A stretch of DNA of 64,000 nt, taken from an uncultured SAR324 cluster bacterium. Lineage in GTDB: Bacteria; SAR324; NAC60-12. The notes beneath the pieces were generated by a model. It was given only the letters and a program-made list of their open reading frames with translations, ran no database searches and had not been told where the DNA came from. The position numbers and the translations under genes were made by a program. Numbering within the stretch: the first letter of the stretch is position 1; every line of letters begins with the position of its first letter. The stretch spans positions 310,001 to 374,000 of the forward strand of contig CAJJCY010000004.1 of the NCBI GenBank assembly GCA_905182865.1, given 5' to 3'. Shown piece by piece: positions 5,072 through 64,000 of this stretch.

Positions 5072-6271
5072 ATGAAGTTCTATGTATTTATTCTAATCGT
5101 TGTCATGTTTTCCTGGTCTTGTTCGTCGAATGATGAAGAAGCTAGCAACTCAAATGCGGCTTCTGTATGTTCAGAGACTTCATCAGATGCAGAAGTCTAT
5201 GAAATTTTTCAACTCGGCACCACAAACTGTAATTTATTCTGCGAGGATAAATCCTTATCAGAGTGCCAGACTGCTTGGGAAAACGGTGAAAAAAATCTGA
5301 ACTACCAGTACGTAGCAAAGTCCTGGACTCCATTGAACACGGTTCACAATAAAAGTGAGGTGTATTTATACAATTTCACTCCGGTTGATTATGAAAATGT
5401 TTCTATCTCTGACAATAATGGGGTATTTAAATCCAGTATTCAGATTAAGGCTTGGAACAGAATCAAGTATCAGCATGTTGTGTCAGGAGATAATGTGACG
5501 GTCACCATACCGAGCAGTAATAACCCGATCATGTTGAAATTTGCCAACGTAAAAACAAAATGGAAGTGGGCGCCCCATAACTTTGATCCTGATAGGACTC
5601 ATGCTAACTGGTGGACGAATTGGACAGGATCGGCTTTAAGGGCGAATTATATCATGAATTACAATATGGCCAACTTCATCAGTACTGATACATTCAAAAA
5701 TGTTATTGTCAACGACAATATTACCTACAGTGGTGCAACGACAACCTGGTATGACAGTTCATGGGGTACCTATGACAATAACAGTGTAATTGTCTCAAGA
5801 ATGAGGGATATTGGTGCGCTGTTTAGGATCGGTGTGGTTAATGGAGGGCAACCCAGTGGACTTGGGGGAGGTGATGTGCATGGTGTGGCCCCTCATGTAC
5901 TTTATGACCATATGCGTTCAAAATTCTGGAGTAACAATGGCTGGAATGGAGCAGATATATGGTTTCATGAGTTTTCTCATTGCTTAGGATTTAGTCACAG
6001 TTCAAACATGACTTATGCTCAGGCAACACCACCCTATGATTCTGACATTCCTGGAAAAGTACAAACTGCTATGGTAAATGCATACAAAGAGGACAACACG
6101 GACCCATTGTTCCCTCCTGGTGATGGACAGGAGGGAATTGATTGTGGTGCTGAACTTGCGGGGGAGAATTGTCCTTCATCCAGGAGTTTGTATACACCCA
6201 AGAGGAAGTTGAATTTCGCAGACGATCAAATATTTGATTTCAGTGAATCTACAAAATATCCCAAAGATTAG
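5072..6271 (+). CDS. Metzincin-type zinc metalloprotease lipoprotein
   Basis: 399 residues. The N-terminus is a lipoprotein signal: a hydrophobic stretch ending in SWSC at residues 14-17, followed by a Ser/Asn/Glu-rich linker, so the protein should be anchored in a membrane on the outside of the cytoplasm. The zinc site is HEFSHCLGFSH near residue 300, matching HExxHxxGxxH of metzincin peptidases. The upstream half is Trp/Asn-rich with no recognised domain, and there are several cysteines. It is probably an extracytoplasmic peptidase; the substrate is unknown. It sits alone between dispersed repeats inside the putative island, and it is one of the few intact genes there. Confidence 0.8.
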   Translation: MKFYVFILIVVMFSWSCSSNDEEASNSNAASVCSETSSDAEVYEIFQLGTTNCNLFCEDKSLSECQTAWENGEKNLNYQYVAKSWTPLNTVHNKSEVYLYNFTPVDYENVSISDNNGVFKSSIQIKAWNRIKYQHVVSGDNVTVTIPSSNNPIMLKFANVKTKWKWAPHNFDPDRTHANWWTNWTGSALRANYIMNYNMANFISTDTFKNVIVNDNITYSGATTTWYDSSWGTYDNNSVIVSRMRDIGALFRIGVVNGGQPSGLGGGDVHGVAPHVLYDHMRSKFWSNNGWNGADIWFHEFSHCLGFSHSSNMTYAQATPPYDSDIPGKVQTAMVNAYKEDNTDPLFPPGDGQEGIDCGAELAGENCPSSRSLYTPKRKLNFADDQIFDFSESTKYPKD

Positions 6272-39539: not shown

Positions 39540-40787
39540 CTAACTTGCCTTGTTAAAGCCCATTTGCCGCCTACCTAATTCGGTCAAGTCTTCCAGTGAG
39601 GCACGGTTTTTATAGGCAATCTCATAATCTTCCGGAGCAAAATCAGGAGCGCTTCGTCCTTCCAGAAACGGTTGTGTTTGGCGTTCCAGGTAACGCACGT
39701 TCCTGTCACACTTTGGGGCAGAGCCGATGTATAGTACACTGCTTACATTGGAACCCTGATGTTCGTGTTCCACGGCATGGACCACATCCGGGTGCCACCA
39801 TACCGTATCACCCGGATTTACTTTGGGGATCGAAACTAGTCCACGCAGGAGAAGAGAATGCCACTCATCGGTAATGGCTTGCGCACGACCTTCGACTGCT
39901 CCACAAAGCATATCCTCCGGTACATCCTCCTGAAACGGGCGCAGCATAACATAGTCAATGCTGAGAGTGGTGGGAATAAGTTGCAGGGTTCCGTCTCCCG
40001 GCCCCTGTTTAGTGAGTGCAGTCCAGCCCTGCCAGGTCCGAAATGCCCGACATACTGCAGGAGAGTCAATTCCTTCCACCTCCGGTCGGAATGCTCCATT
40101 AAAAGGATTGTAACTCTTCCAATTGCTGCTGAACAATGAGCGGTACACCTGCTGATAGTTGTCTCCCAGCCAGCGTTCGATGGATCCGCCGTCAATGTGA
40201 GGTGAAAGTCCCAGTGATGTATCACCGGGTTGCCTCATTCGTACACGGTCCACATAGGTGCATTCACGATCCGGATCAAAATACTGGGTGCCGTTTTCCT
40301 GATAATTCCATAGCCGATTCAGAAAAGACCTTGTTTGAGCCAAATTCGGACTTTGCCTTGCTTCCACCTGAGGTTTTGACCAGTACACTGCACATATTTG
40401 AGTCCGGTCTGTCTTCAGATCACTGAAATAGTGATCCAGTTCTGGGTCATCTTGCTCGAAATACCCATTGGTTTCAAGATATCTTTCAAGTTCTTCATAC
40501 CACAATGATACCTGTTCTTTAGTAAAAACATTGCGAACCACCACGGCTCCTCGGCGTTTGACAGACTTAATCGTAGTGTCATCAACTTGGTTTGCAATAA
40601 TGTCTGAAAAAGCTATTTCAGGTATAACAGATTCACCACGTTTGCTGGCGGATTCAATGGAATCAATTTCTTCTGCAAGTATGGTCTCTAACTCCCTGAA
40701 GTGTTCCGTTATGTTCGGGCATTGTTCATGAATACGACGTTTCAGTGCGATAATCTGCTCAGGAATGTTAGTTGTGTCGATACTCAT
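39540..40787 (-). CDS. DUF1479 (YbiU-like) putative Fe/2-oxoglutarate oxygenase
   Basis: 415 residues, typical DUF1479 length. The core is a cupin-like oxygenase fold: LGLSPHIDGGSIERWLG gives an HxD pair, and HPDVVHAVEHEHQGSN gives the distal His region. GAVVVRNVFTKEQV near residue 80 resembles the opening of phytanoyl-CoA-dioxygenase-like proteins. The family has no established reaction. Its place inside a sugar importer/dehydrogenase operon, about 100 bases from the SDR gene and about 100 from the ATPase gene, suggests a role in handling a modified sugar or its regulator. Confidence 0.82.
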   Translation of the reverse strand: MSIDTTNIPEQIIALKRRIHEQCPNITEHFRELETILAEEIDSIESASKRGESVIPEIAFSDIIANQVDDTTIKSVKRRGAVVVRNVFTKEQVSLWYEELERYLETNGYFEQDDPELDHYFSDLKTDRTQICAVYWSKPQVEARQSPNLAQTRSFLNRLWNYQENGTQYFDPDRECTYVDRVRMRQPGDTSLGLSPHIDGGSIERWLGDNYQQVYRSLFSSNWKSYNPFNGAFRPEVEGIDSPAVCRAFRTWQGWTALTKQGPGDGTLQLIPTTLSIDYVMLRPFQEDVPEDMLCGAVEGRAQAITDEWHSLLLRGLVSIPKVNPGDTVWWHPDVVHAVEHEHQGSNVSSVLYIGSAPKCDRNVRYLERQTQPFLEGRSAPDFAPEDYEIAYKNRASLEDLTELGRRQMGFNKAS

Positions 40788-49922: not shown

Positions 49923-51018
49923 ATGAGTTCTAGCGAAGCTTATGTTAGTTTCCAGGGTGTTCAAAAAAGCTATGATGGCGAAACACTCGTCGTCAAAGAT
50001 TTGAATTTAGACACGCAAAGAGGTGAATTTCTAACTATGCTTGGTCCTTCAGGTTCAGGAAAATCTACTTGTTTGATGATGTTAGCTGGATTTGAAACGG
50101 TGACTCACGGTGAAATAATTCTCGATGGGACCTCCATCAATAACGTTCCCCCACACAAAAGAAATATCGGCATGGTATTCCAGAACTATGCTTTGTTCCC
50201 TCACATGACTGTCAATGAAAATTTAGCTTTTCCCCTGCAAGTAAGAAAGATGTCAAAAAGTGATATTGAAGACCGTGTTAAAAATGTTCTGGATATGGTG
50301 CAGTTGGGTTCTTTCGGTTCACGCCGTCCGATGCAACTTTCCGGAGGTCAACAGCAGAGAGTTGCAGTGGCACGTTCTTTAGTATGTGACCCAAAGGCCT
50401 TTATGATGGATGAACCGTTGGGCGCGCTTGACAAACAACTGCGTGAGCAAATGCAGTATGAAAAAAAGATTTCAATCAGATGCTGGTGCAACAACAGTTT
50501 ATGTGACTCACGATCAAAGTGAAGCCTTGACCATGTCCAACCGCATTGCGGTTTTTAATGACGGCGTAATTCAGCAACTGGCCGCACCGGATACGCTTTA
50601 CGAAGCACCGGAAAATGCTTTTGTAGCCCAGTTCATTGGGGAGAACAACACCCTTTATGGTAAAGTCATCGGTCTTGATGGCGATATATGTACGGTAGAG
50701 GCAGAGAATGGGGATAAACTAAAGGCACTTGGCGTCAACATACAGGGCGTAGGTTTTGACACCATGATTTCACTTCGTCCTGAACGAGTTGAAGTTAATC
50801 CTGAAAGTGGGCAATGCTCAAGTACTGTTACAGGAAAAGTAGAAGAATTGATTTATCTGGGAGATCATATTCGCTCCCGTATGAACGTTTGTGGTCAGGA
50901 CGACTTTATCGTCAAGATTCCAAACTCTGCAAACCATGCACAATTGAGTCCCGGAGATACGGTTAAAGTTGGCTGGAAAGCAGAAGATGCACGTGCATTG
51001 GATGTACTTGTGTCATAA
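49923..51018 (+). CDS. Polyamine-type ABC transporter ATPase (PotA-like), frameshifted
   Basis: Corrected length about 365 residues. Frame 1 (49923-50522) has Walker A GPSGSGKST, LSGGQQQRVAVARSL, Walker B AFMMDEPLGALDKQLREQMQ. At the run of seven A near 50461 the frame slips; frame 2 goes on with RFQSDAGATTVYVTHDQSEA LTMS (H-loop) and a C-terminal TOBE domain (SLRPERVEVNPESG). AAGGAAAG precedes the start. It energises uptake by the PotB/PotC-like permeases encoded downstream. The part just after the slip is locally GC-richer. The indel is probably a sequencing error, since the rest of the operon is intact. Confidence 0.88.
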
Positions 51019-51161
51019 GATGCTGTGGAATAAAGGAGTTGGCCATTGGATTTATTCAAACTGCCAGCATCACGCTTCCAGCATCTTTTAATAGGAGGTC
51101 CCAATTCAGGGATTTCTAAAAAATAGCCCGTTGTGGGTTTAATTGTAAAATAGGAGATAGT

Positions 51162-52256
51162 ATGAATAAATTCATGCGAACCATGACGGCTGCAGCTGTC
51201 ATGGCAATGGTCGGCTTTGCCGGCCAGACAATGGCAACTGAGTTGGTTGTTGTTTCATGGGGTGGTGCTTATACTGCAAGTCAGCAGAATGCTTACCATG
51301 CCCCTTATATGAAGAATAATCCTGGTATTAAAATCATCAATGATGATTCTGCCGGCAGTGCAGTTGCAAAATTGCGGGCTATGAAACAGGCGGGAAATAC
51401 CACATGGGATTTAGTTGATGCAGTTGCATCTGATGCAATGAGGCTTTGTGATGAAGGTTTAGTTGATGTAATCGATCATGATAATGCTTTGGCTTCGGCA
51501 CCAGACGGAACACCAGCCTCAAAGGATTTTGGGGATTTTATTGTTTCCGAATGTTTTATTCCACAAATTGTTTATTCGACAACTTTTGGGTATCGCAAAG
51601 ATAAAGTCAGCAGACCGATGTCAAGTATCTGTGATGTCTTTGACTTAAAATCTTTTCCAGGCAAGCGTGCCTTGGAAAAAAAGCCGATAAACAATTTAGA
51701 ATGGGCCCTTATTTGTGATGGAGTTGCTCCCTCTAAGGTCTATGATGTCCTTGGAACAAATGCTGGAGTAAAACAAGCACTAGCAAAGCTGGACACGATA
51801 AAGAGTAAGGTTGTCTGGTGGACTTCTGGATCACAAACTCCTCAGCTTTTAGCTGATGGTGAGGTTGTTGTAGGCTCAACTTACAATGGTCGTTTATTTA
51901 AGTTGATTGAGGTGGACAAGCAACCTGTATCTATGCTTTGGGATTGGCAGGTTTTCGACCTTGATGGTTGGGTAGTACCTAGTGGTACTAAAAATAAAGC
52001 AGCAGTCATGAAGTATCTTAAGTTTGCAACCGACACGCAGCGTCTTGCAGATCAGGCCAAATGGATTTCCTATGGTCCAACACGTGCTTCCTCAGCACCT
52101 CTTGTAGGCAATCATAATAGTCTTGGAATTCCAATGGCTCCTCACATGCCTACTGATCCGCTCAACGCAAAAACTACCCTACTCTTCAATTATGAGTTCT
52201 GGGCAGATAATCGTGATGACCTTGATGCCAAGTTTAACGCTTGGTTGTTGAAATAG
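51162..52256 (+). CDS. Polyamine-type ABC transporter binding protein (PotD-like)
   Basis: 364 residues with a clear Sec signal (MNKFMRTMTAAAVMAMVGFA GQTMA) and mature start TELVVVSWGGAYTASQQ, the LxVxxWGGxY opening of spermidine/putrescine and related solute-binding proteins. Periplasmic. The Asp/Glu/Trp ligand set of PotD cannot be confirmed by eye, so the ligand could be another small cationic or amino compound. The operon ends in genes for cleaving diamino acids and amides, which suggests an amino-acid-derived ligand. GGAGATAGT precedes the start. Confidence 0.88.
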   Translation: MNKFMRTMTAAAVMAMVGFAGQTMATELVVVSWGGAYTASQQNAYHAPYMKNNPGIKIINDDSAGSAVAKLRAMKQAGNTTWDLVDAVASDAMRLCDEGLVDVIDHDNALASAPDGTPASKDFGDFIVSECFIPQIVYSTTFGYRKDKVSRPMSSICDVFDLKSFPGKRALEKKPINNLEWALICDGVAPSKVYDVLGTNAGVKQALAKLDTIKSKVVWWTSGSQTPQLLADGEVVVGSTYNGRLFKLIEVDKQPVSMLWDWQVFDLDGWVVPSGTKNKAAVMKYLKFATDTQRLADQAKWISYGPTRASSAPLVGNHNSLGIPMAPHMPTDPLNAKTTLLFNYEFWADNRDDLDAKFNAWLLK

Positions 52257-52328
52257 TCATTTTGCTTAAATCAGTCGGGAATTCAGCAATGTTTCCCGAC
52301 TATTTAAATCCTACCTAACTTTAATTTA

Positions 52329-53591
52329 ATGGAAAAAATCCAAGAAAATATTGTTACTGCTGACGGAATTCCTCTTAAGATAAGTTTGGCAAGAGCTCAG
52401 CGGCGCAGTAAAATTGTTGCTTTCATGATGGTTTTTCCTCTATTGGTTTTTATTGTAGTTGCTTTTATTGGCCCAATTGCTGATATGCTACTGCTGTCAA
52501 TAGACAATTCAATTGTAAAAAAAATCCTACCTAAATCTTCCGAAGCTCTCCAAAACTGGGATGAATATTCAGGTGAGTTGCCTGGTGAGGCTGTATTTGC
52601 TGCTATGGTGGATGAAATAAAAAAAGCTAAGGCCGCAAAGGAACATACTAGAGTCGGGCAACGCCTGAACTATGAAAGCTCTGGATTTTCCAGCTTGTTC
52701 CGGAAAGCTGGACGAAAAGTGACCAAAATAAAAACACCTCCTTTTAAAGAAGCACTAATTAAAACAGATAAACGTTGGGGAGAGATTTATACTTGGCAAG
52801 TAATTAAACAAAATTCATCAAGTTATACTGAAGGATACTACCTTGCAGCATTAGATTTCAAGAGGAAATTTTCAAGTGGAAATATTGAGTCACTGGAATC
52901 GAAGGACAGTATATATCTGAAATTATTTTTTAGAACCATCGTGCTAAGTTCACTAATAACATTTCTCACTTTTGTTATTGGTTTTCCTTTGTCATACATG
53001 CTTTCTACGGTGTCTACTCGTATTAGTAATATCCTTATTATTTTTGTTCTTTTACCATTTTGGACATCACTTCTTGTGCGAACCACTTCCTGGATTGCTC
53101 TTTTACAACAAGAAGGAGTGATTAATGATTTTTTGGTTTTAGTAGGATTTATTAATGAGGAAGGTCGTTTGGCAATGATTCACAATGCTACAGGGACAGT
53201 GGTTGCAATGACACATATTCTTCTGCCGTTTATGATTTTACCTTTGTTCAGCGTGATGAAAACTATTCCAAAATCATACGTACGTGCAGCTATTTCTTTA
53301 GGTGCACATCCTTGGAAGGCTTTCTGGAAGGTGTATTTCCCTAATACAGGGGCAGGTATTGGAGCAGGCTCAATTTTAGTGTTTATTTTGGCAATTGGTT
53401 ACTACATTACACCTGCATTAGTTGGAGGTAGTTCAGGAACGTTTATCAGTAACAGGATTGCATATCATATTTCAAGTTCACTTAACTGGGGTTTAGGTTC
53501 TGCCATTGGGGTTATTTTGCTGGGTATTGTGCTTTTATTTTTTGTATTCTATGACCGTATCGTAGGGATCAACAACATGAAATTAGGATAA
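52329..53591 (+). CDS. Polyamine-type ABC permease (PotB-like) with long periplasmic insertion
   Basis: 420 residues, against about 280-300 for a standard PotB. After TM1 (MMVFPLLVFIVVAFIGPIAD) come about 140 mostly hydrophilic residues (roughly 65-205) before the second helix LKLFFRTIVLSSLITFLTFV. The remaining core is ordinary, with the EAA motif SYVRAAISLGAHPWKAFWKV near residue 320. The insertion should face the periplasm and might contact the binding protein. Two bases separate it from the next permease gene. Confidence 0.9.
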   Translation: MEKIQENIVTADGIPLKISLARAQRRSKIVAFMMVFPLLVFIVVAFIGPIADMLLLSIDNSIVKKILPKSSEALQNWDEYSGELPGEAVFAAMVDEIKKAKAAKEHTRVGQRLNYESSGFSSLFRKAGRKVTKIKTPPFKEALIKTDKRWGEIYTWQVIKQNSSSYTEGYYLAALDFKRKFSSGNIESLESKDSIYLKLFFRTIVLSSLITFLTFVIGFPLSYMLSTVSTRISNILIIFVLLPFWTSLLVRTTSWIALLQQEGVINDFLVLVGFINEEGRLAMIHNATGTVVAMTHILLPFMILPLFSVMKTIPKSYVRAAISLGAHPWKAFWKVYFPNTGAGIGAGSILVFILAIGYYITPALVGGSSGTFISNRIAYHISSSLNWGLGSAIGVILLGIVLLFFVFYDRIVGINNMKLG

Positions 53592-53592
53592 A

Positions 53593-54447
53593 ATGAGTAC
53601 TTTGCCTCCATACTTTAGTGTTCCAGAAAGAATATGGCACTATACATTTTGGATAATTTGCGTTTCAGTTCTGTTTTTTTTGATATTCCCACTGATTGTA
53701 ATTATACCACTTTCCTTTAATGAAGTTCCTTTTTTTACTTTCACAAAGAAAATGCTGGCCTTTGATCCCGATGGTTATTCATTACAATGGTACAACGATT
53801 TTTTTACTAACTTGAATTGGCAGGGAGCTGTTAGAAATTCAGTCTTCATAGCTTTTTTTGCTACAATAATTGCTACATTTTTGGGCACTTTGGCTTCATT
53901 AGGGCTTTCCCGTCCAAATATGCCATATCGGACTTTGTTAATGAGTCTCTTGATTTCTCCAATGATTGTTCCTCTAATTATTTCTGCGGCCGGAATGTTC
54001 TTTTTTTACAGTCGTATAGGTTTACAGGGGACTCATTTGGGTGTGATCTTAGCACACGCTGTGCTGGGTACACCTTTCGTTGTCATTACTGTTACCGCCA
54101 CCTTAAGTGGATTTGACAATAACTTGATTCGTGCCTCTCAAAGTTTAGGAGCCACGCCCACGACAACTTTTTTCAAAGTCATTGTACCTTTGATTACTCC
54201 AGGAGTTATTTCCGGAGCTCTTTTTGCTTTTGTTACTTCTTTTGATGAAGTAGTGGTTGTACTTTTCGTTGGTTCATATAGACAACGCACGATACCATGG
54301 CAAATGTTTTCCGGAATTCGCGAACAAATAAGCCCCACAATTCTTGCGGCAGCAACTTTATTGATTGTCGTCACTATTGCGCTTTTAACTACACTCGAAT
54401 TGTTGCGCCGTCGTACAGAACGCCTACGGGGTGTTACCCCTTCCTAA
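53593..54447 (+). CDS. Polyamine-type ABC permease (PotC-like)
   Basis: 284 residues with six membrane helices. FPLIVIIPLSFNEVPFFTF at TM1 and the EAA loop NNLIRASQSLGATPTTTFFK VIVPLITPG near residue 175 are typical of PotC. SFDEVVVVLFVG in the last third is a family hallmark. With the PotB-like subunit it forms the heterodimeric pore. It completes the ATPase-binding protein-permease-permease operon; the catabolic genes begin about 180 bases downstream on the same strand. Confidence 0.92.
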   Translation: MSTLPPYFSVPERIWHYTFWIICVSVLFFLIFPLIVIIPLSFNEVPFFTFTKKMLAFDPDGYSLQWYNDFFTNLNWQGAVRNSVFIAFFATIIATFLGTLASLGLSRPNMPYRTLLMSLLISPMIVPLIISAAGMFFFYSRIGLQGTHLGVILAHAVLGTPFVVITVTATLSGFDNNLIRASQSLGATPTTTFFKVIVPLITPGVISGALFAFVTSFDEVVVVLFVGSYRQRTIPWQMFSGIREQISPTILAAATLLIVVTIALLTTLELLRRRTERLRGVTPS

Positions 54448-54625: not shown

Positions 54626-55822
54626 ATGACAACTGTATTTGAAAACGCAACAATCGCTCATGTTGCAGGTAGGCCTCATTCTCATCAGGCTGCACTGGAA
54701 ATCCTTCCTCCCGAAGGTTTTGCAACTGCGATAGAAGAAATTACCCAATGGGATGGATATGCGCCTACACCGCTTTATAGCTTGAAAGCACTTGCAGAAA
54801 GACTGTATCTCAACGAAGTTCTTTACAAAGATGAAGGCCCTCGATTTGGCCTGGGAAGTTTTAAGGCACTTGGAGGAGCTTATGCAGCTTTACGTGTATT
54901 ACAAAAACAAATCTCTCTCTCTTTGAGTAATGATGTCAGTTTAAAAGATATTCGTACAGGAGAATATACCAAAGAAGCTGCCGATATTACATTAGTATCA
55001 GCAACCGATGGTAACCATGGACGCTCACTCGCCTGGGGTTGTCAACGTTTCGGTGCACAGTGCCGCATCTATATCCATGCAGAAGTCAGCGAGGGACGGG
55101 CCGTAGCCATGCGTGATTTAGGTGCGGAAGTAATTCGAATAAAAGGGGACTATGACGATTCAGTAGATCTGGCACGCATCGAGGCTGAGAGAAACAACTG
55201 GTTTGTTGTCTCCGATACGACATGGCCGGGCTATAGTGAACCACCACGTGATGTTATGCTGGGATATGGCGTAATGACTCGTGAAATTAACGATGAGTTG
55301 ACTCAGCCACCGACACATATCTTTCTGCAAAGTGGTTGTGGTGGTTTTGCTGCTTCAGTTGCTTCTGCTTTAAGGCAGTACTGGGGAAATCAAACCCCAC
55401 GTGTGGTAATTGTAGAGCCAGAACTGGCCGCTTGTCTGTATGAGAGTTCTAAAGCAAATGAAGTGAAGAGAGTAAACATCAAAGAAGAAAGCATTATGGC
55501 CGGATTGTCCTGTGGAGAAGCATCCGAAATGGCCTGGGAAATTTTAACAGAAGAGGCGGTTGATTTTATCACTATTCCTGACAATATCGTACCTCAAACC
55601 GTTCGTGCTCTGGCTAGGCCGGTCGGCGATGACCCAGTTATAGAGGCCGGGGAAAGTGCAGTGGCAGGTCTTGCTGTACTAATCTGTGCAGTCAAACAAC
55701 TTGACTTGCGTGCTAAACTTGGTTTGGATAAGACTTCCCGTGTTTTGTTGATTGGTTCAGAAGGCGTTACTGATAGAGAAATATTTGCCAAAATTATGGA
55801 AGGAGATAAACATGCTGGATAG
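54626..55822 (+). CDS. dpaL: Diaminopropionate ammonia-lyase
   Basis: 398 residues, the same length as E. coli YgeX/DpaL. The fold-type II PLP motif KDEGPRFGLGSFKALGGAYA carries the Schiff-base Lys, and SATDGNHGRSLAWG carries the second catalytic Asp, both as in DpaL. PRVVIVEPELAACLYES and the C-terminal LIGSEGVTD also match. It converts 2,3-diaminopropionate to pyruvate and two ammonia. It sits between the polyamine-type importer and an M24 hydrolase whose start it overlaps by 11 bases, so the imported compound may be converted to diaminopropionate or a relative. Confidence 0.88.
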   Translation: MTTVFENATIAHVAGRPHSHQAALEILPPEGFATAIEEITQWDGYAPTPLYSLKALAERLYLNEVLYKDEGPRFGLGSFKALGGAYAALRVLQKQISLSLSNDVSLKDIRTGEYTKEAADITLVSATDGNHGRSLAWGCQRFGAQCRIYIHAEVSEGRAVAMRDLGAEVIRIKGDYDDSVDLARIEAERNNWFVVSDTTWPGYSEPPRDVMLGYGVMTREINDELTQPPTHIFLQSGCGGFAASVASALRQYWGNQTPRVVIVEPELAACLYESSKANEVKRVNIKEESIMAGLSCGEASEMAWEILTEEAVDFITIPDNIVPQTVRALARPVGDDPVIEAGESAVAGLAVLICAVKQLDLRAKLGLDKTSRVLLIGSEGVTDREIFAKIMEGDKHAG

Positions 55823-56984
55823 TCCTGTTCGAGGTTTTCTTGTTGGAGAGTTCGAGACGCGTTTAGAGAGATTACATAAACTGATGTCTACAAAAGGACT
55901 TGCCGGAATTTTACTGATGAGTGAACCGGAAGTGCGATATTTTACTGGTTTTCTTACACAATTTTGGCAAAGTCCGACACGTCCATGGTTTCTTTTCATT
56001 CCTGTTGACAAAAAACCGATTGCTGTAATTCCGGAAATTGGTGCTGCGTTGATGCGCACAACCTGGATTGATGATATTCGAACATGGGGTGCTCCATGGC
56101 CCAAAGATGACGGCATTAGCCTGTTGCAGGACTTACTTGAGCCATTGTTGAAAAGTGGAGCACGGTTGGGAGTCATGAAAGGGCATGAAAGCAGTTTGCG
56201 CATGCCGCTGGGAGATTATGAGCGTTTGATGTCCGGATTAGGAGGAATTGAGGTAGTTGATGCTACTGATATTTTGCATAATTTACGGATGGTTAAATCA
56301 GCAGCAGAGATTGAGAAAATTGCTCATATATGCGGAATTGCTTCACGGACTTTTGCAAGGGCTGGCGATATTTTTCACAAAGGTCAGTCACTTGCGGAAG
56401 CCTTCCGTGCTTTTCGGATAGAATGCTTGACACAAGGTGCTGATGATGTTCCTTATTTGGCTGGCGGTGCTGATCAAGGCGGTTATTGTGATATTATCTC
56501 ACCTCCTTCAAATCGGTCTTTAGAATCCGGAGATATATTGATGTTTGACACCGGCGCTACTTTTGATGGTTATTTTTGTGATTTTGACCGTAATTTTGCC
56601 ATAGAGCAAGCGGATGATCTCTCACGCCGTGCCTATGATACTTTATGGCGTGCAACCGAAGCAGGACTTTCCACGGCACGGCCTGGAAGAACCTGCCGTG
56701 ATTTATTCCATGCAATGGCAGGGGTGGTTGCTGGTGACAGTGACGCGGTGGCGAATGCAGGGCGTTTGGGTCACGGGTTAGGGATGCAGTTGACGGAATG
56801 GCCGTCGATTATACCTACGGACCGAACAGTGTTGGAAGCAGGTATGGTGCTGACGCTTGAGCCATCGGTGGAAACCGTTGATGGGCGTATCATGGTGCAT
56901 GAAGAAAACATCGCGATCACTGAAACGGGCGCGGTGTTCTTGAACGCGCGTTCACCAGAACTGCCAATTATCGGTGGGAGATGA
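55812..56984 (+). CDS. M24-family metallohydrolase (Xaa-Pro-dipeptidase-like)
   Basis: 390 residues from ATG 55812, preceded by AGGAGATAAAC and overlapping dpaL by 11 bases. The creatinase-type N-terminal domain (about 1-155) is followed by a pita-bread fold with all five metal ligands: Asp in MFDTGATFDG, Asp in CDFDRNFA, His in GHGLGMQL, Glu in LTLEPSVE, and Glu in MVHEENIAI. The family includes proline peptidases and also ectoine hydrolase DoeA, which opens a cyclic amidine. The N-terminal domain does not look like that of DoeA. The last 300 bases are clearly GC-richer, continuous in style with the next gene. Confidence 0.85.
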   Translation: MLDSPVRGFLVGEFETRLERLHKLMSTKGLAGILLMSEPEVRYFTGFLTQFWQSPTRPWFLFIPVDKKPIAVIPEIGAALMRTTWIDDIRTWGAPWPKDDGISLLQDLLEPLLKSGARLGVMKGHESSLRMPLGDYERLMSGLGGIEVVDATDILHNLRMVKSAAEIEKIAHICGIASRTFARAGDIFHKGQSLAEAFRAFRIECLTQGADDVPYLAGGADQGGYCDIISPPSNRSLESGDILMFDTGATFDGYFCDFDRNFAIEQADDLSRRAYDTLWRATEAGLSTARPGRTCRDLFHAMAGVVAGDSDAVANAGRLGHGLGMQLTEWPSIIPTDRTVLEAGMVLTLEPSVETVDGRIMVHEENIAITETGAVFLNARSPELPIIGGR

Positions 56985-57084
56985 AAATTATTTAACTTCA
57001 AACAAAGCTACTGAATTTGTAAGGTTTTCTTGAATAATTTCATGATCTAAATGATCTAATAATATTTTATATGAGAATGCTAAT

Positions 57085-58098
57085 ATGAATCATACAGAAC
57101 CGAAAGTAAGCGCAACAATAGATTTATTGGCAGACGGCAAGCACCACGGACATTTAATTATCCCACATTCCCGCAACGACTCTGGCTGGGGAGCGGTGCA
57201 TCTACCGATCGTTTCGATTCGGAACGGTGCAGGTCAGACGATGCTTCTAACCGGCGGGAATCATGGAGACGAATACGAGGGGCCGATCGCCCTTATGAAA
57301 CTGGCTAGAACTCTCGAAGCCGGGGGAATAAAAGGTCAGGTAATCATCATTCCAGCACTGAACTATCCCGCTGTTTTGAACGGTAGTAGGCTGTCACCGA
57401 TTGACGGAGTTAACATGAACAGGGCTTTTCCGGGTAGACGTGACGGCTCAGTTTCATTGATGATCGCTCATTTCGTTCACGAAAAAATCCTGCCATTGGC
57501 CGATGTCGTTCTCGATATCCATTCAGGAGGAAAGACTATGATGTTTTCTCCTTTCGCCTGTTATCACCGGATTCCTGATGCTGAAGTCATGGAACGGGCG
57601 AAACAGGCGATGCTGGCATTCGGAGCTCCTATCAGTCTGGAGCTTGTTGAACTGGACGCCGAAGGCATGCTCGATACAGAGGTTGAGGAGATGGGCAAGA
57701 TCTTCGTCGGTTGTGAAATTGGTGGCGGAGGAACGTCTACACCGGAAACAGTATTGATCACTGAAATCGGAGTTAGAAACTTGCTGGCACATTTTGAGAT
57801 CATCGACGAAAAGCCTATAAGCTGCGAGGATAGGGGACTTCCGCCGACCCGATTGATGCACATGCCGGATTCAGACTGCTATTTAATCAGTAACGATGCT
57901 GGTATTTATGAGACGTTGATCGATCTGGATGAGTCCGTCAAGAAGGGCGATGCCGTAGGCCAAGTTCATTTTCTGGAAAAACTGGAACGTCAACCTGTCG
58001 TTTACTGTGCTGGTCGTGACGGAACCTTGATCGGACGTACCCACAAGACACTGGTCGGAATCGGTGATTTCCTGGGGATGATTGCCACTGAGATGTGA
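57085..58098 (+). CDS. DoeB-like N-acetyl-diamino-acid deacetylase (AstE/AspA family)
   Basis: 337 residues of zinc carboxypeptidase-like deacylase. The zinc ligands are in LLTGGNHGDEYEGPIAL (His, Glu) and VVLDIHSGGKTM (His); NMNRAFPGRRDGS carries the substrate-binding Asn-Arg. Sequence words such as WGAVHLPIVSIRNGAG, SPIDGVNMNRAFPGR and EEMGKIFVGCEIGGGGT follow DoeB (N-alpha-acetyl-diaminobutyrate deacetylase of ectoine breakdown) closely. It would release a free diamino acid and acetate. It lies 100 bases after the M24 gene, itself similar to the DoeA superfamily, and downstream of dpaL. Base composition is GC-richer than the neighbouring genes on the right. Confidence 0.85.
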   Translation: MNHTEPKVSATIDLLADGKHHGHLIIPHSRNDSGWGAVHLPIVSIRNGAGQTMLLTGGNHGDEYEGPIALMKLARTLEAGGIKGQVIIIPALNYPAVLNGSRLSPIDGVNMNRAFPGRRDGSVSLMIAHFVHEKILPLADVVLDIHSGGKTMMFSPFACYHRIPDAEVMERAKQAMLAFGAPISLELVELDAEGMLDTEVEEMGKIFVGCEIGGGGTSTPETVLITEIGVRNLLAHFEIIDEKPISCEDRGLPPTRLMHMPDSDCYLISNDAGIYETLIDLDESVKKGDAVGQVHFLEKLERQPVVYCAGRDGTLIGRTHKTLVGIGDFLGMIATEM

Positions 58099-58310
58099 GC
58101 TAGCAATGTGGTATTTTGCGTTCTATCGAAATTATTGAACAACTTGAATAAAATTATGCAGACCTGTTTTCGTCAGCAATCAGGAATAAATTTGGAATTG
58201 TCTAAGCCGAGCATGGATCAAAGATGACTTGAGGTGCCCCGGACAAATATTTTTGAAAGCTGGCGTAACTTTGTGGCCGCAAAGCTAAATAAATTGAAAG
58301 TAGTAAAATA

Positions 58311-59144
58311 ATGGCAAAAATCTTAACAGAAGAACAAATTCAGCAATTCCACCAAAATGGTTTTGTCTCGCCGATTCGCGTCATGTCAGAAGAAGAAGCG
58401 TACTCAATAAAGGTAAAAATTGAAGAAGCTGAAAAAAAGTTTCCTGAAGATTTTAATCCAGAAAAGCGTAATAATTTACACCTCACTTTTATGGAACTGG
58501 ATGAATTAGCTCACAACAATGTTATTGTGGACGCAGTAGAAGATCTGATTGGTCCTGACATTTCTTTATGGTCCTCTGTTATGTTTATCAAAGATGCTTC
58601 GACTAATCACTTTGTGAGCTGGCATCAGGATGCGACCTATATGGGAATGAATAGTAGTGATTTCCTCACGCCATGGTTTGCATTAACTCCGAGCACTATA
58701 GAAATGGGGTGTATGACGATGATCCCAGGCAGTCACAAGCAAGGTATTCGCAAACATGAAGACACATTTGCTGCAAACAACATTTTAACACGGGGGCAAG
58801 TTGTCAAAGATGTTGATAAATCAAAGTCTGTTGATTTGATCCTGAAACCTGGAGAAATGTCAATTCACCATGGTGCAGCCATTCATGGTTCAAAGCCAAA
58901 CAAAAGCAAGCAAAGAAGAATAGGCTTTTCTCTACAATCATATATGAAACCCAGTGTAGAACAAATTGTTGGCAAAAATATTTGGATGCACATACGCGGC
59001 AAGAAAAGACAAGATCATGATGGTATGAGATTGTGTCGACCTCAATATGATATGGATAGCCGCTCAATTTACCAGCGAAACTTTGCTGATGAAAATTACT
59101 CGAACATTCTATATAATGGATCTAAGATTAAGCGTAAATATTAG
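58311..59144 (+). CDS. Phytanoyl-CoA-dioxygenase (PhyH)-family Fe/2-oxoglutarate oxygenase
   Basis: 277 residues. The iron site is WHQDATYMG (HxD) near residue 104 and IHHGAAIHGSKPNKSKQRRI (distal His and the 2-oxoglutarate Arg) near 185. The start ILTEEQIQQFHQNGFVSPIR is typical for PhyH. The family includes ectoine hydroxylase and many secondary-metabolite hydroxylases. Since HxD is intact rather than HxA/G, it should hydroxylate rather than halogenate. Its place in a degradation locus suggests it oxidises or demethylates the substrate, or opens a ring. Confidence 0.87.
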   Translation: MAKILTEEQIQQFHQNGFVSPIRVMSEEEAYSIKVKIEEAEKKFPEDFNPEKRNNLHLTFMELDELAHNNVIVDAVEDLIGPDISLWSSVMFIKDASTNHFVSWHQDATYMGMNSSDFLTPWFALTPSTIEMGCMTMIPGSHKQGIRKHEDTFAANNILTRGQVVKDVDKSKSVDLILKPGEMSIHHGAAIHGSKPNKSKQRRIGFSLQSYMKPSVEQIVGKNIWMHIRGKKRQDHDGMRLCRPQYDMDSRSIYQRNFADENYSNILYNGSKIKRKY

Positions 59145-59178
59145 TATTTAGTTTTGTTCTCAAACAAGTAATAAATAC

Positions 59179-60180
59179 ATGAAAACTCCTAAACTCCCCT
59201 TAATCATTGACGGACTCCAGTACAACAACTGGTCAGAGGATATTTTCCGGGAGATGAACGAAGGCGGAGTAGCGGCTGTGCATGTGACAATATGTTACCA
59301 TGAGGATTTTCAGGAGATGGTAGAGAATGTGATCGCCTGGAACCGGCTTTTTGAGCTGCATTCCGAGTTGATATTTCATGGGCGCAGCGCTGAGGATGTT
59401 CTGAAAGCGCAGAATGAGGGGCGAACAGCAATTATCTTTGGTTTTCAAAATTGCTCACCAATTGAAGATGATATTGGTTTAGTTGAAATTTGTCATCAAC
59501 TTGGTGTACGTTTTATGCAGCTTTCTTACAACAATCAAAGTCTGCTGGCAACAGGCTGTTATGAAGATGACGATTCCGGAATAACCAGGATGGGGCGTCA
59601 AGTGATCAAGGAAATGAACAGGGTTGGACTGGTTGTTGACATGAGCCATTCTGCGCGTCGTTCTACTCTTGAGGCTATCGAAATTTCAGCACGACCAATT
59701 GCCATTACTCATGCTAACCCTTTTTTCTGGTGTGAGGCGCTGCGAAACAAGACTGATGACGTCTTAAAAGCTATAGGGGAAAGTGGTGGAATGCTCGGTT
59801 TTTCAATGTATCCACATCATTTGAAAGATAAATCAGCATGTTTGCTGGAAGATTTCTGCGGCATGATTGCGAGGACTGCGGAAATGATAGGAGTTGAAAG
59901 GATAGGCATTGGTAGTGATCTATGTCAAAACCAGCCTGACAACGTTGTTGAGTGGATGCGTAACGGTACCTGGAGCAACGAAAGGGATTTCGGTGAAGGG
60001 TCTGCGAAACTGGCCGGTTTTCCAGAACAGCCGGAATGGTTTCGCGACAATCGTGATTTTGAAAATATTTTCAGTTGTATTCCACCTAAAGAATTCATTC
60101 GAGCTGTTGTGGAGCCAGAAATCAACTTAAACAATTTTTTGAAAAATCTTTTGGTCCATAAAAGAAACGATGGAAGATGA
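59179..60180 (+). CDS. Membrane-dipeptidase (M19, renal-dipeptidase-like) family hydrolase
   Basis: 333 residues of amidohydrolase-fold M19 peptidase. DGLQYNNWS near residue 11 replaces the usual HND/HxD opening, so the first zinc-ligand pair (DxHxD) seems changed; GGVAAVHVTICYHEDFQEM, LVVDMSHSARRSTLEAIE, IAITHANP and ERIGIGSDLCQ are recognisable M19 blocks. The family cleaves dipeptides, including those with a D- or dehydro-amino acid. No lipobox or signal is present, so it is cytoplasmic. It ends 11 bases inside the next gene. Confidence 0.82.
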   Translation: MKTPKLPLIIDGLQYNNWSEDIFREMNEGGVAAVHVTICYHEDFQEMVENVIAWNRLFELHSELIFHGRSAEDVLKAQNEGRTAIIFGFQNCSPIEDDIGLVEICHQLGVRFMQLSYNNQSLLATGCYEDDDSGITRMGRQVIKEMNRVGLVVDMSHSARRSTLEAIEISARPIAITHANPFFWCEALRNKTDDVLKAIGESGGMLGFSMYPHHLKDKSACLLEDFCGMIARTAEMIGVERIGIGSDLCQNQPDNVVEWMRNGTWSNERDFGEGSAKLAGFPEQPEWFRDNRDFENIFSCIPPKEFIRAVVEPEINLNNFLKNLLVHKRNDGR

Positions 60181-61882
60181 GAAGTCTGAGACAACCCATA
60201 TTGTTACAAAAGGAATGCGTTCTCCTGAAAAGGTAATGCGTTTGGCCAGAATGGGTTCATCTTTTCAGACGCGCCTAAGTTTTATGCGTAGTCTGACCCG
60301 TAGAATCTCAAAAGAAAAATGGAGATTTGAGAAATTACGTTTTGAAGTCGATGAGAAAGGTTACGGAACTTCGGTTTATGTTGTCCACACTCCGGAGCGT
60401 ACATATTCACTGATAACGTTTACAAATGAAGTTGCCCCGGAGCAACGTACTGACCGTGTGGTAGCGGAGGTATGGGACGCAACCTTCAATCTTTTCGATG
60501 GCATTCCAACTGAGGCGGATATAAAAAGACTCTCTGCAAACACTCCAAAACAAGAGGCTGGTCGATTCGGTCCCAGTGAACTGGTGCTGGCGCGTGCCAA
60601 TAAAAGTTTGCGCCTATTTGAACATGTGGCTTCGAGGTTGTCTGAGGGAAAGCAGCCAGATATCGAACTATTGGCTTCTGTCGGTTATCTGATGCGTACT
60701 ACAGCGGTTTATGGTAGTGGAAAATTCGGTTGTGCTGACAGGGAAAAAATATCCAATCGCTCAGAAATGCGGGGATCTTTTCAGGTAGAATTGATCACGG
60801 TTTATCTTTTTCGCTGGTTCACTATAGAACTAGTTGAATATGTTGCAAAACAACGTGGTGGACGAAAGGCTGTCAGTTTAAATCCGGAAATTAGTAAATT
60901 CCTCGGAATAGGAAATGCCACCGGTTTGGGTATGGCTCCGTTTCTGATAAAACATCCAGTGTTGATCCATAAATGGGTTTTAGCACGCGAAACTGCTCTT
61001 TCCAGAGTTGTTGCTCTTGAATCACATACTCCGGAATCCTTGTCATTATTTAGTAAATTTATGTTTCAGGCAACTCAACACATTGCTGAGTGGAATGTTG
61101 AGGATGAACAACAAACTTCTCGAATAATAAAAACACGTGAAGACCTTAAGCAGTTGTCTAACTGGTTTGCGAATGAAGAAAATATTAATCAGCCACTTAT
61201 CTGGGAGAGGATATTACGCTTTGCAGAAGCCAACTTTTCACTTGAAGGTCAGGAGTTGACAGTCTCACTATTACTTGAATCCCACGGTAAACTTGTAGAT
61301 GAGTTAGCGGATGATATGCAAACTTCCACTGGAATAGAACTTGAGCCGTCAATGAGCCTCAATCAGTTAAGAGAATTACTGCAGAAATCGTTTAACTGGG
61401 CGTTGGAAATTGACTTTGATGATCCGGAAAAACAACGTCGTTTTTGGTACTATTCCGAAGAAAAGTTGGAACCACGTTTTGGAGACAGATATGCTGATCC
61501 GGGGGCAGAACAGGAAATGCCGCTTGCTGTAGCACGTGATGTCTTCCTGCTTAACAAAAAAATTAAGAGCGTTAGTGATGATATATCTGTAGGTAAGTTT
61601 GTTCAAAATCATCCAGAATTCCGTAATATTGTCCGTAGAGTGCAGACAGTTGTTCGTTTTCCGTATGCAGAAATAAGGGATAACATTGTGGACGCCGAGA
61701 TGCGTCCCATCGATCTATTGCGTTTCAAACTGGCTTTTTTTGGAGCCTCCAAATTTGATCCAAAATCAGAGTTATGGACACGCATTACCTTATTTCAGGG
61801 TGCTCCTCTTCCAGATCAATTTGTTGGTAACGATTCAGACGAATGGGCTTTTCCGTTCTGTCCGGATATTGTGGCAGCATGA
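60170..61882 (+). CDS. Uncharacterised 570-residue protein of the diamino-acid locus
   Basis: No named domain is recognised. It is soluble, rich in charged residues, with predicted alternating helices and strands. Conserved-looking blocks are SFMRSLTRRISKEKWRFEKL, GYGTSVYVVHTPERTYSLIT F, AEVWDATFNLFDGIPTEADI and RSEMRGSFQVELITVYLFRW F. The start overlaps the dipeptidase gene by 11 bases and the stop overlaps the next start (ATGA), so it is translationally locked into the operon. That tight coupling is the best hint that it works with the DUF3726-like product. It may be a catabolic enzyme of an undescribed type. Confidence 0.7.
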   Translation: MEDEKSETTHIVTKGMRSPEKVMRLARMGSSFQTRLSFMRSLTRRISKEKWRFEKLRFEVDEKGYGTSVYVVHTPERTYSLITFTNEVAPEQRTDRVVAEVWDATFNLFDGIPTEADIKRLSANTPKQEAGRFGPSELVLARANKSLRLFEHVASRLSEGKQPDIELLASVGYLMRTTAVYGSGKFGCADREKISNRSEMRGSFQVELITVYLFRWFTIELVEYVAKQRGGRKAVSLNPEISKFLGIGNATGLGMAPFLIKHPVLIHKWVLARETALSRVVALESHTPESLSLFSKFMFQATQHIAEWNVEDEQQTSRIIKTREDLKQLSNWFANEENINQPLIWERILRFAEANFSLEGQELTVSLLLESHGKLVDELADDMQTSTGIELEPSMSLNQLRELLQKSFNWALEIDFDDPEKQRRFWYYSEEKLEPRFGDRYADPGAEQEMPLAVARDVFLLNKKIKSVSDDISVGKFVQNHPEFRNIVRRVQTVVRFPYAEIRDNIVDAEMRPIDLLRFKLAFFGASKFDPKSELWTRITLFQGAPLPDQFVGNDSDEWAFPFCPDIVAA

Positions 61883-62623
61883 AATCTCCTGAAATCGTCC
61901 TATCTCTTAATGAAATAATGTTTTACTTTACCAGAGCAGCGGTAGGAGCAGGACTGTCTTTTGGTTTAGCAGAGGATTTTGGGCGTTCCTCCATTTGGAT
62001 TGCAGCCAGTGGTCTTGATCCAGCCAGAATTACTTCAAAAACTCTAAAGTCTCTTGATGAAGCTCAAAGCAGTCTCTGTGCAAGTCAAACTGAGATTGGC
62101 GCTAAAACTGTACTGACGCCTTCCGGAGGAAAACAACTTTCAGCACTTTTTGCTGGACCTTCAGTTTGTGACTGGATTTTAGAAACAAAAGAGGTTTCAG
62201 ACAAAACTCAGCATTTTGTCGTAGAAAAAGTTGATCACCCTTTTCTAATAGCAGCAGCTGTTGGAGCATTAAAATCCGGAAATTGGGAGATTTGCTGGCA
62301 GGATTCCGGAGGCACTCTCTGTAATGTTTTGACAGGTCAGAATGGAAACTGGAAAACTTCATTGGAAGGAAATGAGATTTTTCAACAGCACAGTCCAGCG
62401 GATGTGTCAATCAAATCTGCGGAAAGTAGTTTGTTCAGTTCTAAAAAGTGGATTGAGAAAAACACATTTTCTGAGAAAAACAGTCAAGATGTTTTGGAAT
62501 CAGGAGTACCATTATACGAATCCTGGCCGATAATCCATAAATTATTTTTCTCGCTGCCTGGTTGCTTCCACCGAGGAGTCGCACAAGTCTGGCGCCGGAG
62601 CCGGTTTGGTGGATACGGATTAA
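61879..62623 (+). CDS. DUF3726-like protein, frameshifted near its C-terminus
   Basis: About 247 residues. The opening EIVLSLNEIMFYFTRAAVGA GLSFGLAEDFGRSSIWIAA matches the DUF3726 pattern of a short helical N-terminus with GAGxxxGLAED. Near 62550 a run of T carries one extra base; the open frame then runs on as a basic tail to 62646, whereas the other frame gives LVASTEESHKSGAGAGLVDT D and stops at 62623, which fits the conserved end of the family. No function is known. The start overlaps the stop of the 570-residue gene by four bases. Confidence 0.7.
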
Positions 62624-62765
62624 AAACTAATTGCACTAAAACATAACTTCCAGCTCTATGGTCTTTACTGTAGTAATTGCTTTAGTTATGATTGATATGC
62701 AGACAGTTTGTTATGACTTATTAAATTTTCATTAATTTTTCATTATTAGGTACTTACTAGATCAG

Positions 62766-63218
62766 ATGTCACACACAAAAACTATGAATCCTCTGATAGA
62801 TATTCAGAAAATTGCAAGGCAGGTTTCTTTGTCCGACTTTAACCCGGATGTTATTGTTGGAGTTTCAAGAGGTGGGCTTGTTCCTGGTGTTGCCCTCAGT
62901 CACTGGTTTCAATTGCCGATGGTTCCAATTCAAACAGCACTGAGAGATTTTCCAACCTGGGTAAAATATAAACCTGAGCAAGCACACAAAAAAGTACTGA
63001 TTGTGGATGATGTTTGTGATGGAGGCGAAACATTCCACAAAATTCATGAGGAAATCAAAGAATTTTGCGAGGAACCAAAGTTTGCCTCTCTCTGGTGGAA
63101 CAATGAATGTGATTTTACACCGCATTATTACGCCAGAGAAGTAGCCAAAGACAGTGAAAAACTCTGGATTCATTTTCCCTGGGAATTTGAAAATACTCAA
63201 CAATACATAACTGATTAA
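62766..63218 (+). CDS. Purine-type phosphoribosyltransferase (Gpt-like)
   Basis: 150 residues. The PRPP-binding signature VLIVDDVCDGGETF near residue 78 and the N-terminal PDVIVGVSRGGLVPGVALSH loop are diagnostic of type I phosphoribosyltransferases; the length and the late aromatic LWIHFPWEFE resemble xanthine-guanine phosphoribosyltransferase. It transfers ribose-5-phosphate from PRPP to a purine base. The GMP reductase gene starts 2 bases downstream, so guanine salvage to GMP followed by conversion to IMP is a coherent role. Confidence 0.85.
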   Translation: MSHTKTMNPLIDIQKIARQVSLSDFNPDVIVGVSRGGLVPGVALSHWFQLPMVPIQTALRDFPTWVKYKPEQAHKKVLIVDDVCDGGETFHKIHEEIKEFCEEPKFASLWWNNECDFTPHYYAREVAKDSEKLWIHFPWEFENTQQYITD

Positions 63219-63220
63219 AT

Positions 63221-64000
63221 ATGTATATTGAAAATGAAGTCAAATATGATTTTTCAGACGTGCTGATTAAACCGAAGCGCAGCTACTATACTTCCCGAAA
63301 AGAGGTTGATCTGGAAAGGGATTTCAAATTTAAGTGGTCCAATCTGTCCTGGAAAGGAGTCCCGATTGTTGCGGCAAATATGGATACTGTAGGAACAATC
63401 GGTTCTGCTGAAGTCCTTAGCAAACACAAAGTACTGACCTGTTTGCATAAATTTCATACTGCGGATGAATTACTTAAAATATCCAGTGGTATAAAGAAAA
63501 ATGTTGCAATCACTATAGGAGTCGCAGAAGGTTTGCAGGCACTGTATGATCTCGGTGAGCAAATAAAAGATTTTAATTTTATCTGTATTGATGTAGCAAA
63601 CGGTTACACCGAACAGTTTTGTGATTTTATTAAACTGGCACGCTCTGAGTTTGAAAACAAAATAATTATTGCTGGCAATGTTTGTACGCCGGAAATGACG
63701 GAACAGCTTATTTTGTCAGGTGCAGATATCGTTAAAGTTGGGATTGGAGGGGGCTCTGCATGTCTTACCAGAAATGTGGCCGGAGTCGGAATTCCTCAGT
63801 TAAGTGCAGTTATCGAGTGTTCTGATGCAGCGCACGGAATTGGTGGGATGGTCATGTCAGACGGCGGTTGTACTTGTTCCGGTGACATTAGTAAAGCATT
63901 TGGAGCAAATGCCGATTTTGTGATGCTGGGCGGCTTGTTTGCCGGTCATGATGAGAATAGTGAGACTATTACGGAAAATAAAATTTCAGGAGAAAAAACA
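63221..64000 (+). CDS. guaC: GMP reductase (5' part; runs off the window)
   Basis: The first 260 codons are open to the window edge; full-length enzymes are about 345. MYIENEVKYDFSDVLIKPKR is the standard opening, VAANMDTVG a barrel strand, and VKVGIGGGSACLTRNVAGVG IPQLSAV holds the catalytic Cys and phosphate loop; IGGMVMSDGGCTCSGD precedes GGLFAGHDE. It reduces GMP to IMP and ammonia with NADPH. IMP dehydrogenase has the same core but carries CBS domains inserted after the first barrel segments; no CBS insertion is seen here. It follows the phosphoribosyltransferase gene by 2 bases. Confidence 0.9.
   Translation, partial: MYIENEVKYDFSDVLIKPKRSYYTSRKEVDLERDFKFKWSNLSWKGVPIVAANMDTVGTIGSAEVLSKHKVLTCLHKFHTADELLKISSGIKKNVAITIGVAEGLQALYDLGEQIKDFNFICIDVANGYTEQFCDFIKLARSEFENKIIIAGNVCTPEMTEQLILSGADIVKVGIGGGSACLTRNVAGVGIPQLSAVIECSDAAHGIGGMVMSDGGCTCSGDISKAFGANADFVMLGGLFAGHDENSETITENKISGEKT

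Follow-up and report, generated by a model that had tools for sequence, protein, structure and literature searches.

Does a run of seven catabolic genes on one strand encode one pathway, or has it been assembled from more than one? The question arises in a 64,000-nucleotide stretch of DNA (the window) from an uncultured SAR324 cluster bacterium (GenBank assembly GCA_905182865.1, contig CAJJCY010000004.1, positions 310,001 to 374,000). Here, a polyamine-type importer is followed by genes for a diaminopropionate ammonia-lyase (dpaL), an M24 hydrolase, a DoeB-like deacylase, a PhyH oxygenase, an M19 hydrolase, a 570-residue protein (U570) and a DUF3726 protein. The original prediction, made from the window alone, took all seven for a single undescribed ectoine-like pathway ending in DpaL. 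Our comparison of genomes suggests another answer: the run is probably a composite catabolic operon with one Pot-type importer, in which an ectoine-type gene set (module B: dpaL, M24, DoeB-like and PhyH, 54626-59144) stands next to a part of a widespread, most likely homarine, operon (module C: M19, U570 and DUF3726, 59179-62646). The genes are as follows.

54626..55822, + strand: module B DpaL, pyridoxal phosphate (PLP)-dependent diaminopropionate ammonia-lyase family (NF006058, 463 bits, cut-off 276)
55812..56984, + strand: module B M24 hydrolase, distinct cassette subfamily (PF00557)
57085..58098, + strand: module B DoeB-like deacylase of AstE/AspA fold (TIGR02994, 377.9 bits, cut-off 402.7)
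58311..59144, + strand: module B PhyH Fe(II)/2-oxoglutarate oxygenase (PF05721)
59179..60180, + strand: module C M19-fold hydrolase, dipeptidase metal site partly lost (PF01244, 222 bits)
60170..61882, + strand: module C U570, a conserved family without a name in Pfam or NCBIfam
61879..62646, + strand: module C DUF3726 protein, Ldh_2-type predicted fold (PF12525, 32 bits, cut-off 22.1)

Gene content of the run and of its counterparts

The seven genes, their order, strand and families are those originally described, according to the open reading frame (ORF) list of the window and to Pfam and NCBIfam scans in which bit scores were compared with model cut-offs. Starts and stops overlap by 11 bp at dpaL/M24, 11 bp at M19/U570 and 4 bp at U570/DUF3726, again as described, except that DUF3726 likely starts at 61879 rather than 61843.

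The evidence that the run is composite comes first from the same genus, where the full order—pot genes, dpaL-M24-DoeB-PhyH, M19-U570-DUF3726, phosphoribosyltransferase, GMP reductase (GuaC) and a second M24—is found only in the window's genome. One congener has no intact dpaL (G001), another has a broken dpaL and no DoeB (G014), a third lacks dpaL, DoeB and PhyH (G003), and a fourth has dpaL-M24-PhyH-M19 without DoeB on a short contig (G005). In locus L065, M19-U570-DUF3726 comes straight after potC, module B being absent and the phosphoribosyltransferase-GuaC flank kept, and potC is likewise directly 5' of M19 in G009. G004 (L213, G004:C36) has the same importer and flank, between which lie a DoeB2-like M20 gene, three M24 genes (one 73% identical to the M24 of the window) and a nitrilase gene in a row, and no M19, U570 or DUF3726. 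Since congeners carry each set separately (L065 and G009 versus G004/L213), M19-U570-DUF3726 is one unit and dpaL-M24 is another, and the modules give the impression of exchangeable units beside a common importer rather than steps of one pathway.

The same picture emerges on a global scale. Scanning the U570 alignment against 84,980 species genomes gave at least 569 relatives, and the neighborhood counts given here cover the 80 listed. DoeB is found at none of these 80 loci, DpaL at two and the cassette M24 at three, of which two are from SAR324. Besides this SAR324 genus, the two modules are neighbors only in Pseudovibrio (L129/L255), where, in a different arrangement, dpaL, M24 and M20 lie beside the U570 operon, the sole such case outside the genus among the 80 loci. 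M19-U570-DUF3726 is thus a separate and wider operon, nearly always without dpaL, M24 and DoeB. A single pathway, in which all seven enzymes would in turn process a diamino acid imported in cyclic or acylated form, would agree with co-directional genes with overlapping ends and with the Pseudovibrio pairing. It does not agree with these counts, on which we rejected it, nor with two loci that hold module C without module B (L065) and the cassette M24 without M19 and U570 (L213), and we consider it improbable.

Module B and its ectoine-like partners

The association of dpaL, M24 and a DoeB-type deacylase, the core of the original prediction, holds up well: it recurs in Roseobacters, Vibrio/Photobacterium, SUP05 and SAR324. 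The dpaL and M24 genes are adjacent in Aliiroseovarius, Phaeobacter and Roseovarius (62-68% identity, tblastn against plasmids) in the order amidohydrolase-dpaL-M24, with genes for an EutA-like racemase and for Lrp, GntR or Ehu proteins nearby in some. The order is dpaL-Lrp-EutA-M20-TRAP-M24 in Photobacterium and Vibrio, where TRAP denotes a tripartite ATP-independent periplasmic transporter, and dpaL-EutA-M20-TRAP-M24 in SAR324 genome G026. The usual partners of dpaL and the cassette M24 are an M20 deacylase best matching DoeB2, a protein best matching EutA (both under the cut-offs of these NCBIfam models), an Lrp regulator, and an Ehu or TRAP transporter; Ehu-type genes adjoin module B genes in L226, L244 and L253. 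In the SUP05-type locus L248, the order is dpaL-M24-EutA-PhyH, with identities of 73%, 70%, 55% (EutA-like) and 67%, respectively. Because a PhyH orthologue follows dpaL-M24-EutA there, PhyH belongs to module B. The M19 protein, U570 and DUF3726, which the original prediction had included in the same pathway, belong to module C.

This linkage is not a matter of chance. Thirteen DpaL loci were picked by DpaL rank alone, disregarding M24, from 30 genomes reached through U570 loci, and a cassette M24 lies within ~7 kb in eight of them, an M20 in seven and an EutA-like gene in five. The window's genome has only six M24 genes in all in 3.2 Mb, so the dpaL-M24 linkage is far above chance, among sampled species that are related to each other, and the objection that the two genes merely happen to adjoin fails. 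DoeB paralogues in congeners (~50% identity) were discarded as representatives of the same locus: their neighbors are dnaK/dnaJ or other genes, and neither dpaL nor a cassette M24 accompanies them. Separately, G019 (L077:3895-5833) has a PhyH gene, 44% identical to that of the window, side by side with a DoeB-like gene; neither dpaL nor M24 is there, and a TIM-barrel (AP_endonuc_2) gene lies alongside.

DpaL, which scores 313 bits against the 532 of the stricter TIGR03528 model, keeps its catalytic residues: when it is aligned to E. coli DpaL (4d9g), the lysine of SFKALGG and the aspartates of ATDGNHG and VSDTTW coincide with those of the E. coli enzyme. In the M24 protein, the metal-ligand positions D, D, H, E and E are kept in all 21 cassette-type members compared, and in the same 21 a threonine replaces the histidine of the prolidase xHE motif (GHGLGMQLTEWP; LTE in 20, NTE in one). 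LTEWP thus stands where prolidases have VHEWP, the second histidine typical of prolidases is missing, and the subfamily is marked by a near-invariant TE...HEEN signature. Because threonine replaces the prolidase histidine in this otherwise near-invariant signature, the M24 protein is not a standard prolidase. Nor is it the ectoine hydrolase DoeA/EutD, an assignment ruled out by score (48 bits against a DoeA_2 cut-off of 575, and 42.5 against 613). The deacylase falls under the TIGR02994 cut-off and so is not a DoeB/EutE member by score; it branches beside, not inside, the DoeB proteins linked to doeA/eut genes, with support of 94/97, just under the starred level. Its catalytic motifs NHGDEYEG, DxHSGG and the E of (C/T)E(I/L)GG are conserved relative to doeAB-linked DoeB and 6twm, and its best PDB matches are 3na6 and the DoeB structures 6twm and 6twl. 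It is best viewed as a sister of DoeB.

What might this module do? Judging from its gene set, it looks like an ectoine-type route with DpaL in the slot of the PLP enzyme. In this route, hydrolysis of a C-N bond by the M24 enzyme would probably open a cyclic amidine or amide. The acyl group would be removed by a deacylase of exchangeable type (DoeB-like in the window, a DoeB2-like M20 at other loci), and an elimination by DpaL would then turn the resulting 2,3-diamino acid, or a 3-hydroxy-diamino acid, into a 2-oxo acid and ammonia, while PhyH may hydroxylate the substrate or an intermediate. In ectoine breakdown, the unrelated deacetylases DoeB and DoeB2 occupy one slot. Because two unrelated deacetylase types swap in one slot here as well, the corresponding step is probably acyl removal from a diamino acid. 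A deacylase-DpaL pair also has a direct precedent, since in E. coli an N3-acylated diaminopropionate is processed by YgeY (M20) and YgeX (DpaL) in succession (PMC12507026). An ectoine-like substrate is suggested by the Ehu-type transporters beside three loci and by the EutA-like protein. The candidate substrates are an N-acyl-diaminopropionate or a cyclic form of it, and a hydroxyectoine, whose opened and deacetylated product DpaL would dehydrate. We propose, tentatively, that marine Alpha- and Gammaproteobacteria and SAR324 possess an undescribed pathway for a cyclic or N-acylated diamino acid, either a five-ring ectoine analogue or a hydroxyectoine, which would be degraded by M24, by a deacylase of DoeB-like or DoeB2-like kind, and finally by DpaL.

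Important similarities and differences with ectoine and hydroxyectoine catabolism (ehuABCD-eutABCDE, doeAB) bear on this proposal. Both have an importer, an M24 hydrolase, a PLP fold-type II lyase and an AstE/AspA-fold deacylase (~50% identical to DoeB), and relatives of module B also have an EutA-like protein and Lrp. The differences from the known systems lie in the M24, which is no DoeA, in the PLP enzyme, which is DpaL rather than EutB, and in the deacylase slot, filled by a DoeB-like protein at some loci and by a DoeB2-like M20 at others. A specific hydroxyectoine route, in which PhyH or import supplies hydroxylated ectoine, M24 opens it, the deacylase yields 3-hydroxy-2,4-diaminobutyrate and DpaL, replacing EutB, removes water and ammonia while the EutA-like protein fixes the stereochemistry, is attractive in that partners best match EutA and DoeB2 and Ehu transporters adjoin module B loci. 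Each Eut slot has a counterpart here, EutA, EutB, EutD and EutE having been proposed to be racemase, PLP dehydratase, hydrolase and deacetylase, respectively (PMC5924519). Yet no EutC, DoeC or DoeD was recognized at module B loci, the score of PhyH with the EctD model is only 17 bits (cut-off 336), and the M24 is far from DoeA, which makes this route rather unlikely.

The purine-salvage genes flanking the run, a phosphoribosyltransferase and a GMP reductase, raise another scenario in which module B forms the last part of reductive uric acid breakdown, converting acyl-diaminopropionate to pyruvate, and this pathway does end with YgeY and YgeX (PMC12507026). The E. coli cluster pairs a deacylase with DpaL for the breakdown of an acylated diaminopropionate, and module B would do likewise. 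However, the uricolytic marker SsnA falls well under its cut-off in the window's genome (139 versus 455.5 bits), on which we rejected this pathway; M24 and EutA-like partners occur instead, the M20 of the cassette matches DoeB2 rather than YgeY, and the flanking pair persists in congeners without dpaL, such as L065. We regard this scenario as very improbable. As to novelty, no papers were found on DpaL with ectoine hydrolase or with hydroxyectoine, and a search on ectoine and diaminopropionate returned four papers, none of them, by title, on such a pathway. Module B, as read from its genes and neighbors, is thus a recurring catabolic association with ectoine-like partners that is apparently undescribed. 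The original claim of an undescribed system appears to stand for this module and not for module C, which is probably a recently published homarine pathway.

Module C and a probable homarine operon

U570 relatives at the 80 loci include members of Rhodobacteraceae, SAR116, SUP05, Mesorhizobium, Methylocapsa and Acidimicrobiales, the nearest named ones being in metagenome-assembled genomes (MAGs) labeled Deltaproteobacteria and Candidatus Lambdaproteobacteria. Within 6 kb of U570, in the 77 loci where it is one ORF, DUF3726 and M19 are each present in 56, an aldehyde dehydrogenase (ALDH) in 30, Ldh2 in 20 and LysR in 19. The canonical order LysR-ALDH-M19-U570-DUF3726-Ldh2, seen in Ruegeria, Pelagibius and others, is represented in the window by its M19-U570-DUF3726 core, in order. 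The window's genome encodes elsewhere an Ldh2 69% identical to the operon type (G000:C4:756328) and a FAD/folate demethylase with 81% identity to the one that neighbors U570 in G015; an operon-type ALDH was not found. Across 25 genomes of the genus or family, many of them incomplete MAGs, co-occurrence of U570 and Ldh2 is no more than suggestive (9/14 versus 3/11, p 0.07).

We interpret the module C operon as probably dedicated to the catabolism of homarine (N-methylpicolinate), a compound common in plankton, to N-methylglutamate, a reading drawn from gene content and synteny. Its enzymes would cleave the ring, oxidize an aldehyde and remove a one-carbon acyl group, the order of these steps being a proposal; Ldh2 would then reduce an imine, and N-methylglutamate would be demethylated, with Ldh2 and the folate-linked demethylase encoded elsewhere in the genome. 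A homarine operon, said to be named homABCDER and to consist of five enzyme genes and a regulator, has reportedly been described by Ferrer-Gonzalez and colleagues in 2026. That operon appears to resemble the one defined here in its LysR gene, its five enzyme genes including Ldh2 and its link to N-methylglutamate dehydrogenase-type genes; the window differs in joining only M19-U570-DUF3726. In Ruegeria pomeroyi, tmaR (AraC type) neighbors mgdABCD, and Mgd is described as a participant in homarine catabolism (PMC13390433); a conserved homarine pathway is the subject of a 2026 paper cited there. The same bacterium draws down homarine within hours (PMC12817926). In Phaeobacter inhibens, the operon is carried on a plasmid, where the genes next to it bear the annotations sarcosine oxidase delta, alpha and gamma, helix-turn-helix regulator and LysR.

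A different betaine, such as proline betaine or a relative of trigonelline, might be degraded by the same logic. Generic betaine genes do neighbor U570, namely BCCT (14 of 80 loci), OpuAC-type binding proteins (5), MttB (7) and FAD/folate demethylases (4). The five structural genes with LysR and the link to sox/mgd-type genes (4 of 80) fit conversion of homarine to N-methylglutamate (PMC13390433), which leaves the other betaines a doubtful choice. At four gammaproteobacterial loci (L115, L094, L106 and L113), an M24 gene best matching DddP lies directly or closely 5' of M19-U570 (436 bits in L115, cut-off 600), which is possibly another betaine-cleaving enzyme.

In the M19 protein of module C, LQY occupies the dipeptidase HxD site, whose metal-ligand position is known from renal dipeptidase, and a glutamine aligns with the metal-ligand glutamate of 3id7, in 38-39 of 40 homologues. 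The motifs DxLQYxNW and FGFQN are found in nearly all 40. The fold of membrane (renal) dipeptidase and its motifs DxSH, THANP and GSD (here GSDLCQ) are retained; because part of the dipeptidase metal site is lost, the protein is unlikely to be an ordinary dipeptidase. Its closest solved relative, 2i5g, is deposited only as an "amidohydrolase". U570 has no Pfam or NCBIfam family match. Its AlphaFold2 model is confident (pLDDT, the predicted local distance difference test, 87.9; pTM, the predicted template modeling score, 0.89), but comparing it with 350,542 PDB chains gave nothing significant (best E 0.2, TM ~0.1); there is no PDB match by sequence profile and none among viral models, so that assigning a function by fold failed. 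The DUF3726 model (pLDDT 85.6) matches at E < 1e-3 only Ldh_2 structures, with 27 matches that include ureidoglycolate dehydrogenase, YiaK and piperideine-2-carboxylate reductase (best 4fjs, 1.3e-6). Its predicted fold is that of this family, from which it differs in being ~100 residues shorter in most members and in lacking a Pfam Ldh_2 match. An hhalign comparison with the operon Ldh2 gave a weak match that aligned the N-terminal helices (E 4e-4, probability 35%), and no papers on DUF3726 were found.

Importer, flanks and significance of the locus

The importer and the genes on the other side complete the picture.

49923..51018, + strand: potA-type ATP-binding cassette (ABC) importer ATPase, as two overlapping ORFs (49923-50522 and 50410-51018), frameshifted in the assembly
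51162..52256, + strand: PotD-type substrate-binding protein (SBP_bac_8, 178 bits; PotD model 29 bits, far under cut-off)
52329..54447, + strand: PotB and PotC permeases, in identical order in congeners
62766..63218, + strand: phosphoribosyltransferase, conserved flank (PF00156), in identical order in congeners
63221..64000 in the window, ending at 64264 outside it, + strand: GMP reductase (NF003470, 477 bits, cut-off 397)
64333-65469, outside the window, 3' of GMP reductase: second M24

The polyamine-type importer predicted at 49923-54447 is indeed present and of Pot type, and it may serve module B, module C or both. The run had been thought to end at 62623; the conserved order, identical in congeners, continues to the end of the second M24 at 65469.

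Several points weigh against the composite reading. The potA gene of the shared importer is frameshifted in this assembly, with a change of frame near residue 182 (tblastn), while congeners, G001 among them, have a single 365-residue ORF; since other genes of the same assembly are split likewise (for example, L171:7065-8982), a sequencing error is the likely cause. Three congeners (G001, G010 and G014) have a decayed or split dpaL, and module B may therefore be dispensable in the genus. This genome, in an assembly that is 86% complete, lacks an operon-type ALDH (identity 32% at best), and the proposed match of module C to the published homarine operon is drawn from synteny.

Other features deserve a brief mention. 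The phosphoribosyltransferase-GMP reductase-second M24 flank (L008:767-3470) is kept even in congener loci without dpaL (L065) or without M19 and U570 (L213), and in G019 (L178) this second M24 adjoins Ldh2. Elsewhere in the window, a second PhyH-like protein of 415 residues, classed from sequence only and unrelated to the run, is encoded at 39540-40787 beside a sugar-type ABC importer, a short-chain dehydrogenase/reductase and a dehydratase, and a putative lipoprotein with a metzincin-like HEFSHCLGFSH motif at 5072-6271.

These findings have implications for both modules. In many marine genomes, such genes are often annotated as dipeptidase, Xaa-Pro peptidase or hypothetical protein, and the role suggested for them here is small-molecule catabolism. 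U570, with no relative among solved folds, is, on its predicted structure, a candidate for a new type of enzyme that opens an aromatic N-methylpyridinium ring, and DUF3726, a predicted shortened Ldh_2-fold protein beside a true Ldh2, offers a structural claim that can be tested. If module B works as we infer, DpaL together with this unassigned M24 subfamily would mark a catabolic route for compounds that marine bacteria import like ectoines; its gene set would then be a direct means of finding its compound, and the proposed pathway would point to an unrecognized marine osmolyte or metabolite.

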